Positions 52,923-56,722 of a stretch of 64,000 bases of DNA are shown one piece after another (position 1 is the first letter of the stretch; every line of letters starts with the position of its first letter). The stretch is from positions 62,001 to 126,000 of the forward strand of contig NZ_JARRAH010000001.1 of the NCBI RefSeq assembly GCF_030553305.1, in the 5' to 3' direction. The position numbers and the translations under genes are program-made. This DNA comes from Halomarina ordinaria (GTDB lineage: Archaea; Halobacteriota; Halobacteria; Halobacteriales; Haloarculaceae). A model generated the notes under the pieces. It had not been told where the DNA came from. It ran no database searches and was given only the letters and a program-made list of their open reading frames with translations.

Positions 52923-54098
52923 ATGCCAACGCAACTCACGCGACGCGGGTTCCTCGCGGCGACGGGCGGGTCGCTCGCGGCGTACGGTGCGGTCGGACAG
53001 GCGACTGGAACGCCGTCCGACCGCGTCCGGTTCGCGGCGTTCAACATCGAGAACCTGACCACCGACCAGGTCCAGGAACCGGGAGACGAACAGGCGGCGG
53101 CCGCCGCCCGGGTCGTCCAGGAGGCGCGTCCGGACGTCCTCGCGCTCAACGAGGTCGTCAACAACGTACAGAAGGGTGAACGGACCGACCGGACGAACGC
53201 GCGAGCGTTCGTCGAGGAGTACCTGACCGACCCGCAGGCGCCGGGCCTCTCGGGCATCGACTACGAGTACGTCTACGTGCCGGAGAGCAACACCGGCGTC
53301 CACAGCGGCTACGACCTCGACAACAACGGCGAGACGGTCGACGACCCCGGCAGCCAGGCCTACGGCGACGACGCCTTCGGCTTCGGACTGTTCCCGGGCC
53401 AGTACGCCCTCGCGCTGGTCAGTCGCTACCCCATCGAGGAGTCGGCGGTGCGTTCGTTCCGGGAGTTCCGCTGGACCGACATGCCCGACAACTTCGCCGT
53501 CCGCGACGACGACGAGTCCGACTTCTACCTGAACGACGAGGAGGCCGAGGTGTTCCGCCTCTCCTCGAAGACGCACGTCGACGTCCCTGTCGACGTCGGC
53601 GGGCGGACGGTCCACTCGCTGCTCGCCCACCCGACACCGCCGGGGTTCGACGGCCCGGAGAACTTCAACGGGAGGCGCTGTCACGACGAGGTCCGCCTGT
53701 TCGCCGACTACGTCGCCGGTGCGGAGTACCTCTACGACGACGACGGCGTGCAGGGCGGTCTCGCGGACGACGCCTCGTACGTCCTCATGGGCGACATGAA
53801 CGCCTCGCCCGGACAGAAGGAGACGTACGACGCCGCGACGAAGTTCCTCCTCGACAACGACGACTTCGAGGCGCGCCGGCTCCCGACGAGTCCCGGCGGT
53901 GCGCGGCGGGGGAACCCGCAGGCGACGTTCGACTCGGTCGACCAGATCGACTACGTGCTCCCCTCGCCCGACCTCGGCCTCCGGGGGTCGAAGGTCGTCT
54001 GGCCGGCGACCGACTGCGCGAAGCGAGGGCTCGGCGCGGCCGTCGCGACGGCTTCCGACCACCGACTCGTCTGGGCGGACGTCGACACCGGACGCTGA
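52923..54098 (+). CDS. Tat-exported endonuclease/exonuclease/phosphatase
   Basis: A 391-residue secreted enzyme. The N-terminus MPTQLTRRGFLAATGGSLAA is a clear twin-arginine signal (RRGFL). The mature domain has the EEP-fold active site: FNIENL with Asn (about 41-46), LNEVV with Glu77, MGDMNAS with Asp/Asn, and SDHRLVW with the His. It contains long acidic inserts typical of haloarchaeal exoenzymes (DDEGVQGG-like loops). Substrate may be extracellular DNA or phosphate esters; not determinable. The upstream HD gene is divergent. Confidence 0.92.
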   Translation: MPTQLTRRGFLAATGGSLAAYGAVGQATGTPSDRVRFAAFNIENLTTDQVQEPGDEQAAAAARVVQEARPDVLALNEVVNNVQKGERTDRTNARAFVEEYLTDPQAPGLSGIDYEYVYVPESNTGVHSGYDLDNNGETVDDPGSQAYGDDAFGFGLFPGQYALALVSRYPIEESAVRSFREFRWTDMPDNFAVRDDDESDFYLNDEEAEVFRLSSKTHVDVPVDVGGRTVHSLLAHPTPPGFDGPENFNGRRCHDEVRLFADYVAGAEYLYDDDGVQGGLADDASYVLMGDMNASPGQKETYDAATKFLLDNDDFEARRLPTSPGGARRGNPQATFDSVDQIDYVLPSPDLGLRGSKVVWPATDCAKRGLGAAVATASDHRLVWADVDTGR

Positions 54099-54827
54099 CC
54101 GGGTAGTGACACACGACCGGGTACGAGGCGCGTGATGCGCCGGAAGCGGCGGGTGCGCGAGTGTGGCATAGACGAACTGGCACGCCCGGCGCTTCCGTCC
54201 CACACCTCTGAGCGCGCCTAGTTGAGCGTATCGGTCTCCCCGCAGTCTTTCCGGGACACCACGTCGGTCCGTCACCGACCAGGCAAAGACTCGTAGAGCG
54301 TGACGAGAGCGAACGAGCCGCGATGCTCGCGGAACGCTCGATGAGTCGCAGACGGCGTATTCGTCGGGGAACGCGCGACCCTCGGCGCCACACCACCCTT
54401 ACCGGATTCTGTATCGCGATAGTTAGTTTACGTTGTGTGGACCGTCCGTTCCGGCACGGCCCGGAGAGTGAAACGGGGATTTGACGTTACGCGACGTTTA
54501 TGTCGTGACATGCCATACCACTGATTGCCCGGTATCTGACCACGGAACCCGGTTCAGCATCGGGCCTTTCACGGTACCCGGATGGCGCTCCTCGGCGATA
54601 CCCCGGTGGTCTCCGGTGGGGGTCCCCGCCCGGTGGCTCCCTTCCTCCCCTTTCAGCCCCCCTGCGCTCTCACGTTTCGCCGAAGCCGGCCGCCGAGCGC
54701 TCCGTCCCACAGGACCCCGGACCGACGCCGTCGGCACCCGCGGGCGGGAGACCGAGAACGACCATGTGGTGAAGTCTCGGCACCCGAGGAACGAACCGAC
54801 GGCGAGGGCGGCGACCGCCGTGACCCG
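54099..54827. other. 729-base gene-poor region
   Basis: No supported gene. Part of it (about 54410-54530) is AT-richer with TTATG/TTTAC-like patches and a CGAC-GTCG microdyad. Frames here, including a 123-codon plus-strand frame starting at 54481, lack family-like composition and are rejected. May be decayed DNA next to the broken gene downstream. Confidence 0.5.
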
Positions 54828-55322
54828 TCAGTGTCGACGCATCGCCGGGTAGTCGACGAGTCCTGCGCGCGCCGCGAGCACCATCCCGACGGGGGAACGT
54901 CGTCAGCAGAGCGACGCCGACCGGCGTGACGAGAACGAGCCAGAGGAGCGCCGGCGCGCGGTAGGAGACGACCAGTCCGGCGCGGAGCGCGTCGGCAGCC
55001 AGCCGTGGGACGACGACCGGCCGCCACGAACGGGCACCCGAGCGCGTTCCGAGCCGAAACACCCGAGAGCCCCCGCCGAGCGACCGGGGGTCGCACGCGG
55101 TCCCGCGACCACGCCGCGAACCGTGAGCGCGCCCCACGCCTCGTGGAGGACCAGCGACGTGACGGCGGGATGCTCTCGCCCTCGACGCGAGACGGTCAAC
55201 TTTCGATCGCGGCCACACGACGCGCGCAGGAGGACGGCGAGCCGGTCGACGAGCGTCACCATCACGAGAAGGTGTATCGAGACGCCCGCGGTGAGCACCT
55301 GTCCGGCGTGCGCCCCGCTCAC
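54828..55322 (-). pseudogene. Frame-broken membrane protein gene downstream of PadR
   Basis: Read on the minus strand, a membrane-protein-like sequence is spread over two frames. Frame 1 from ATG 55322 starts MSGAHAGQVLTAGVSIHLLV and continues LVLHEAWGALTVRGVVAG. The middle, in another frame, reads LAADALRAGLVVSYRAPALL then WLVLVTPVGVALLTTFP. The end returns to frame 1: GMVLAARAGLVDYPAMRRH, stop at 54828. The switches fall near a GGGGG and a CCCCC run. Either two mutations or assembly errors restore one ORF of about 165 residues. PadR lies directly upstream. Family not recognised. Confidence 0.5.
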
Positions 55323-55389
55323 GGTCGCTCTTCGGTCGATGACGTTGGAGGGCCGACACCTGGGAACCGGTCGCGGCTGTCTCCCGGGT

Positions 55390-55677
55390 TCAGAGCTCCT
55401 CCGGGAGGTACGAGTCCTCCCACTGTCGACGCGAGCCGATGGCGTCGCGTCCCTTCTCCGAGAGGGTGTAGTAGTTCGTCCGACGGTCGATCTGGCCTTT
55501 CTCGACGTAGTCGTTGTTGACGAGCGTGTCGAGGTTCGGGTAGAGTCGCCCGTGGGTGACTTCCGTCCCCGTGTCGGTCTCGATTCGGTCCTTGATCTGC
55601 TGTCCAGACGGCCGTCCTTCGCCTGCGATGACGTACAGCAGGTCGCGCTGGAATCCTGTTAGCTCGAAGAGCGTCAT
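55390..55677 (-). CDS. PadR family transcriptional regulator
   Basis: A 95-residue winged-helix protein: FELTGFQRDLLYVIAGEGRPSG, the recognition helix region in HGRLYPNLDTLVNNDYVEKG, and the wing/dimer segment DRRTNYYTLSEKGRD. PadR proteins respond to small hydrophobic compounds and usually repress a neighbour; here the neighbour is the frame-broken membrane gene on the same strand 67 bases downstream. A TATA-like AACAATG (read on the minus strand) lies about 30 bases upstream of the start. Confidence 0.93.
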   Translation of the reverse strand: MTLFELTGFQRDLLYVIAGEGRPSGQQIKDRIETDTGTEVTHGRLYPNLDTLVNNDYVEKGQIDRRTNYYTLSEKGRDAIGSRRQWEDSYLPEEL

Positions 55678-56038
55678 TGCCGGCTGACCGTTCCCCCGGT
55701 AGTGTCATTGTTAGTTGGGGCCCTCTAGCGGCCGTCTCCGGCGTTGTCGTGGCTTATGTCCGCTACTGACATCTATAGGGGCTTCAAAATACAACGTTCG
55801 AACCTGTTAGATACAAGGTAGCTCGATGCGCGCCCGTGCAACGGTCCGAAACGATACCGGCCCCGAACGCCCCCGCGTGTGCCGTTATACGGCTCCATGA
55901 GCCGCGTCTGCAACGGATGCAACTGAGTTACATGGGGAATACGCGAGCGTACGACGGCGTTTACCGGACGGACTGTATCGTTAAGACCGGTAAAATCCCG
56001 TGGCGGACGAGTTTTCAGAGACGAACTCCCTCGACCAG
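55678..56038. other. 361-base AT-richer intergenic region
   Basis: Between divergent-type regulators: PadR (minus) and HalOD1 (minus). Patches such as TTATACGG, CATTGTTAG, AATACAAC and the microdyad CGGCTccatgAGCCG are visible. No ORF with family-like sequence was found. Composition is less GC-rich than flanking genes, fitting a recently inserted or decayed stretch. Confidence 0.4.
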
Positions 56039-56278
56039 TCAATCGGTCGCGGAGACGCCCCGCTCGGTGTAGCTCCCCGCCCGGGTCTCGGTCGTCACGA
56101 TACCGTCCTCGATGTGGACGTCGCACCCGGCGTGCGTGAACCTGACCGTGATACCGGTGGTGGCGAGCGAGTCGAGCGCGTCCGGGTCGACGGTCTCGTA
56201 CAGCGGCGGGAGCGAAGTAGGGTCGACCGCTAGCTCCTTGGCCACCGCCTCGACGACGGACGTAGTGGAGTCGAACAT
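56039..56278 (-). CDS. Stand-alone HalOD1 output-domain protein
   Basis: A 79-residue protein that is almost entirely a HalOD1 domain: VVEAVAKELAVDPTSLPPLYETVDPDALDSLATTG, ITVRFTHAGCDVHIEDG. In haloarchaea this domain normally ends larger sensor or response-regulator proteins and is thought to be an output module; as a single domain it may be a small partner protein. ATG 56278 gives MFDSTTSVVEAV. Lies in an AT-richer stretch. Confidence 0.85.
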   Translation of the reverse strand: MFDSTTSVVEAVAKELAVDPTSLPPLYETVDPDALDSLATTGITVRFTHAGCDVHIEDGIVTTETRAGSYTERGVSATD

Positions 56279-56587
56279 ATTCACGTTCCGGAAATAAGAT
56301 GTAATAAGTTTGTTGTTCGTGACACCGAAACGAACACTCTCGCTGGCGTTCACCGTGCGGTCTCCGACCCCCAGAGGGCACCCCACTCCCCTCTCGACAG
56401 TATTCATAGATAAGAAACTGTATTAAATTCGGTAATGTACCCATACCGTGTCCCCGGACGTCGCCGCCGTGCGGTTTCGTCGACCGGGGGCGGCCGGCCC
56501 CGAACCGAGGCTAACCATGGGATAACAAAGGGGGTTTCCGTTCTCTACTCGGTCGTGTCCGGCGCCGACCGCCGAGACGTGATCCCA
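56279..56587. other. 309-base intergenic region
   Basis: Contains AT-rich promoter-like patches (AAATAAGATGTAATAAG at about 56293-56309; ATAGATAAGAAACTGTATTAA at 56407-56427, here quoted in parts) and the dyad GTTCGT (56316-56321)/ACGAAC (56331-56336). No ORF beyond the short one at 56588. It probably drives the HalOD1 gene leftward and the 44-codon ORF rightward. Confidence 0.45.
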
Positions 56588-56722
56588 ATGAGCACCAACC
56601 GACACGACGCCGACGGCGAGGTCGAGGTCCTGCAGCTCCCGAACGCCCGAATCAAGCTCACGAGCGGCTACAGCGCGTGGGTGGCCTCCGACACGTGGTA
56701 CGACCTCAGCGCGACGCGCTGA
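56588..56722 (+). CDS. Short 44-residue ORF (DUF7331-like)
   Basis: A 44-codon ORF from ATG 56588: MSTNRHDADGEVEVLQLPNA, then a strand-rich middle and an AWVASDTWYDLSATR ending. The Trp-containing AWxxSD ending resembles the haloarchaeal DUF7331-type micro-proteins as I remember them. No clear ribosome binding site or TATA. Ends 23 bases before the stop of the convergent lactate permease gene. Real but unproven. Confidence 0.5.
   Translation: MSTNRHDADGEVEVLQLPNARIKLTSGYSAWVASDTWYDLSATR

Follow-up and report, generated by a model that had tools for sequence, protein, structure and literature searches.

A frame-disrupted locus beside a PadR-family gene of Halomarina ordinaria: most probably a degenerate pseudogene of an extra fused TatC

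On the minus strand of the window, by which we mean the whole 64,000-nucleotide stretch that was analysed (positions 62001-126000 of contig C1 in the 3.61-Mb genome of Halomarina ordinaria), a putative membrane gene was found to be split over two reading frames. Frame 0 (frame A) runs from a GTG at 55322 to a TGA at 54905-54903 and is open for 139 codons, frame 2 (frame B) encodes PVVVPRLAADALRAGLVVSYRAPALLWLVLVTPVGVALLTTFP, and frame 0 then resumes with GLVDYPAMRRH before the TGA at 54830-54828; read from A to B and back to A, these pieces give a coherent part of a membrane protein ending in GLVDYPAMRRH. The initial annotation regarded the locus as possibly a recent pseudogene or the outcome of two assembly errors, with a PadR gene upstream as expected for a regulated efflux or membrane gene. 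The locus thereby raises the questions of which gene it once was, whether it is truly broken, and whether it has anything to do with PadR.

Identity of the split reading frames

In a tblastn search, the frame-2 piece was matched to domain 2 in a pair of TatC proteins encoded by other genera of the family, with E values of 4.6e-7 and 3.3e-6. By blastx, the frame-0 piece LVLHEAWGALTVRGVVAG was aligned to LLLYYAWPALKERGVVTG, and GLVDYPAMRRH*RVTAVAAL was aligned to GLVPFRVMRGRWREVVVAVL. A profile built from 36 TatC rows likewise matched in two frames and in collinear order; the tblastn, blastx, and profile matches were all collinear across the two frames, with the same switches as in the translation. 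Furthermore, frame-aware protein-to-DNA alignment scored 215 when the reference was the intact fused TatC of Halomarina sp. BCD28 (G001:C5; span 55154-54686), and 172 when it was the resident TatCt of H. ordinaria (span 55166-54662). For comparison with the former score, 150 dinucleotide shuffles averaged 35.8 (sd 4.1) and never exceeded 49, and the highest value among 70 other 901-base stretches of the window was 73.

In a genome-wide Pfam search, a TatC match including one TGA was obtained at 54765-54893 of the window (C1:116765-116893), too weak to reach the cut-off (E 0.039), and this was the sole TatC match in the genome besides the intact tatCo/tatCt pair. The two overlapping open reading frames as they stand gave no Pfam match, and no Rfam family was matched within 54000-56600. 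A search for relatives with the 139-residue open reading frame returned mostly chance matches, among which only two loci (L038 and L052) led to TatC, via the other frame. Just upstream of the relic, the first TatC domain scored in frame-aware alignment as its shuffles did, and no other significant TatC match was detected in the six frames of the window by a profile covering TatC from roughly residue 110 on and a single-sequence search covering the whole protein. An efflux gene was also considered as the identity of the locus and was ruled out, as the relic is part of TatC, a component of protein export.

In the nomenclature of Haloferax, the fused TatC is called TatCt and the normal one TatCo. 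According to a review (PMC13186574), two additional helices and a cytoplasmic loop connect the two fused TatC domains of the large TatC of haloarchaea, which is encoded beside a normal TatC; the name TatCt is used in PMC7305310. The intact tatCo/tatCt pair of H. ordinaria fits the description in PMC13186574, and the relic falls short of it. Compared with the fused double TatC (TatCt; TatC2 in Halobacterium salinarum; PF00902), the relic corresponds collinearly to the C-terminal portion of domain 2, between the YYAWPAL-like region and the terminal LGGR, but lacks the first domain and the linker, is interrupted by one TGA as well as about four to five frame changes in place of a single open reading frame, and does not lie beside tatCo. 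With such disabling lesions and an intact copy elsewhere in the genome, the locus is very probably a degenerate, 5'-truncated pseudogene of an extra haloarchaeal fused TatC, and its features are collected in Table 1.

Table 1. Features of the tatC relic and the adjoining DNA (positions in the window)
Feature	Position	Strand	Basis
Probable tatC pseudogene of the TatCt type, covering the C-terminal portion of TatC domain 2 and interrupted by about 4-5 frame changes and an in-frame TGA	54662..55166	minus	Frame-aware alignment, shuffles, profile matches, Pfam
In-frame TGA in a column that is tryptophan in 34/34 intact relatives	54828..54830	minus	Conservation count and frame-aware alignments
First frame-change zone, near CCCCC 55090-55086 and GGGGG 55074-55070	55053..55093	minus	Sequence, codon-position GC, alignments
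Second frame-change zone, at CCCCC 54895-54891	54887..54895	minus	Sequence, codon-position GC, alignments
Two more frame changes past the TGA, near 54789-54777 and 54721	54721..54789	minus	Frame-aware alignments
Coding-like 5' stretch from GTG, in frame with the first TatC piece	55167..55322	minus	GC3-GC2 up to +0.53
Intact PadR-family regulator, 95 aa, directly upstream of the relic	55390..55677	minus	PF03551, E 3.1e-12

Frame changes and decay of the relic

The frame switches themselves proved to be real, as translation, homology matches, and codon-position GC agreed on them. A 90-base scan of GC3 minus GC2, which is independent of homology, favoured frame 0 at 55370-55071, frame 2 at about 55100-54861, frame 0 again at 54920-54711 (the final 90 bases being tied), and lastly frame 2 at 54770-54681, an order identical to that of the switches seen in the translation. 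Their proposed proximity to GGGGG and CCCCC was borne out in part. The second switch, at about 54893, falls inside one of the three runs of five bases listed in Table 1; the link of the first switch to a homopolymer is not certain, because its placement spans the whole of its zone and it may consist of two shifts (the second near 55020 in some alignments); and the two later frame changes have no homopolymer of at least five bases at their sites. Similarly, the coherent piece ending in GLVDYPAMRRH is present, but is not the end of the homology, which continues beyond the TGA through these two later changes to about 54686-54659.

The number of lesions was assessed in 25 alignments, combining five frame-shift penalties (8, 12, 16, 20, and 30) with five TatC references. 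At least four frame changes were retained in all 15 alignments at penalties of 8, 12, and 16, in four of the five at 20, and in one of the five at 30, the harshest setting, at which the other four keep two shifts plus the stop; a count of five frame changes is thus dependent on the scoring. The TGA at 54830 was present in 25 of 25 alignments.

Decay was also evident from the residues that are most constrained in TatC. Forty-two columns were conserved, that is, the same in at least 90% of 34 intact TatC rows; for this count and for the tree, 34 of the 36 rows were used, L089 and L093 being dropped as second readings of the extra copies of G001:C5 and G007:C10. The relic keeps 26 of these 42 columns and has lost 16, some of the missing residues lying inside the open pieces; its alignment was guided by a single reference, a procedure that if anything works in its favour. 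Among the intact rows, 33 of 34 keep at least 39 columns, whereas 35 are retained in the divergent second copy of G007.

These observations bear directly on whether the true gene is intact and the switches are merely miscalled homopolymers. Runs of five bases do lie at or near two of the switch zones, in favour of sequencing or assembly error. Two frame changes, however, lie away from any run of at least five, the TGA replaces an invariant tryptophan, and the neighbouring genes are open; since only 26 of the 42 conserved columns are kept and the first TatC domain is missing, sequencing error alone is insufficient, and we regard an intact gene behind the present sequence as most improbable. The same C and G runs could be read as sites of programmed frameshifting that link the pieces into one protein. 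With at least four changes plus a TGA at the conserved tryptophan, fused TatC relatives that are read here from open frames, and conserved residues lost within the open pieces too, the probability of such recoding is practically nil. The locus is instead an old, ordinary dead gene; the suggestion of a pseudogene was thereby upheld, and those of a recent one or of two assembly errors found no support.

The PadR neighbourhood and the 5' stretch

The relic lies between an intact gene of the endonuclease/exonuclease family and the intact PadR gene, and the PadR, HalOD1, nuclease, and permease genes around it are all open frames. Orthologues of PadR are 94% and 91% identical in the two closest relatives, G004 and G005, respectively, where they are surrounded by the same nuclease, HalOD1-type, and permease genes. 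Beside these orthologues no TatC relic was found (frame-aware scores of 35-46, within the shuffle range), so that the linkage of PadR to the relic is, among the genomes seen, particular to H. ordinaria. The position of PadR just upstream was therefore described correctly, but its role as the regulator of an efflux gene found no support, the relic being part of TatC. A search for an intact orthologue beside PadR, proposed at the outset, had a comparable outcome: one 61-residue piece of the relic is matched in 136 of 146 family genomes (its own included), and none of the homologues was found beside this PadR. PadR would owe its place next to the relic to chance or to a local rearrangement, rather than being its regulator.

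Other differences were observed on the far side of the relic. In G004 and G005, a transporter that we take from its sequence to be MFS-like is placed between the nuclease and PadR genes; at 54103-54660 of the window this gene is absent, with no detectable relic. The transporter scored 31-32 against 54091-54700, which appears to be background when set beside the TatC shuffle scores. Two non-coding segments, 54127-54243 and 54453-54565, are about 70% identical to intergenic DNA of G004 beyond the MFS-like gene (L057) and partially match G005 (L058), and matched no Rfam family. The adjacent gene at 52923-54098 encodes an endonuclease/exonuclease/phosphatase-family protein, whose N-terminal RRGFLAATGG, read by eye, presumably resembles a Tat signal.

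The upper limit of the locus had originally been set at 55322. Positions 55322-55167 show a gene-like codon signature and code for a hydrophobic segment, but their similarity to TatC was not above chance: in frame-aware alignment with the N-terminal 575-610 residues from each of three TatCt proteins, 22 to 27 of 60 shuffles reached the observed score. Among 392 genomes of the order, 22 gave a match at E up to 0.05 (its own included), the best non-self value being 5.4e-4; in genome_contigs, none of 592 pattern matches was confirmed, and the plasmid collection contained no homologue. This stretch may represent a rapidly evolving portion of the relic itself, or what is left of a different gene.

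The openness of frame A over 139 codons, the codon-position GC of intact genes in its 5' third, and a start that follows PadR by 67 bases on the shared strand are the features expected if the open reading frame from GTG 55322 to 54903 were the living second gene of a PadR operon, composed of a new membrane segment and a TatC fragment partly out of frame. The lack of a homologue of the 5' piece in the above searches beyond that E value, the weakening of the coding signal in the TatC part, and the missing TatC relic beside PadR in G004 and G005 all speak against such a gene, and we consider it very unlikely. There is likewise only a slim chance that translation of the frame-A open reading frame persists behind PadR and yields a new small membrane protein built on a fragment of dead tatC; in that event, a pseudogene would have given rise to a young gene sharing an operon with a regulator.

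Origin and meaning of the extra TatC copy

The resident pair, intact tatCo (C1:2114626-2115261) and tatCt (C1:2115791-2117806), lies on the same contig, about 2.0 Mb from the relic. The resident tatCt is of the same family as the relic, but is less like it than several other TatCt proteins are. In the genus, an extra intact fused TatC beside the usual pair was found in two of the seven other genomes (G001 and G007). The copy in G007 (L118, 8199-10157) is a divergent second fused TatC with an open frame of 653 residues. That of G001, Halomarina sp. BCD28, is annotated as twin-arginine translocase subunit TatC (WP_254538885.1) on a plasmid of 94.5 kb (NZ_CP100452.1; 94,505 bases), and lies just upstream of genes for RdfA (rod-determining factor) and an archaea-specific SMC-related protein (L131, 6125-8377).

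This plasmid gene gave the best DNA match to the relic in the genus (66% over 320 bases, E 5.6e-15), followed in the plasmid collection by a plasmid of Natronococcus sp. AD-5; it differs from the relic in being intact and plasmid-borne, and none of the genes in the 8 kb inspected upstream of it is annotated as PadR. The relic is thus likely an extra, probably acquired, copy. Because the best frame-aware score was that of L091, a protein from another genus of the family (223), with the plasmid copy second (215) and well above the resident TatCt (172), a plasmid origin is only suggested by the sequence comparison. In the tree, the relic branch had a length of 3.4 changes per column, and the relic was not placed.

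Taken together, a plausible course is that the genome gained an extra TatCt copy by duplication or, with greater likelihood, from a plasmid; as the function would already have been supplied by the resident tatCo/tatCt, selection would not have preserved the copy, which may have decayed through indels, a stop, and substitutions. The relic matters little in itself. Within the genus, extra fused TatC genes are gained and lost, two other species having an intact extra copy and this one a relic, and a broken reading frame in raw archaeal DNA can be traced to its gene even when Pfam on the open frames gives nothing.
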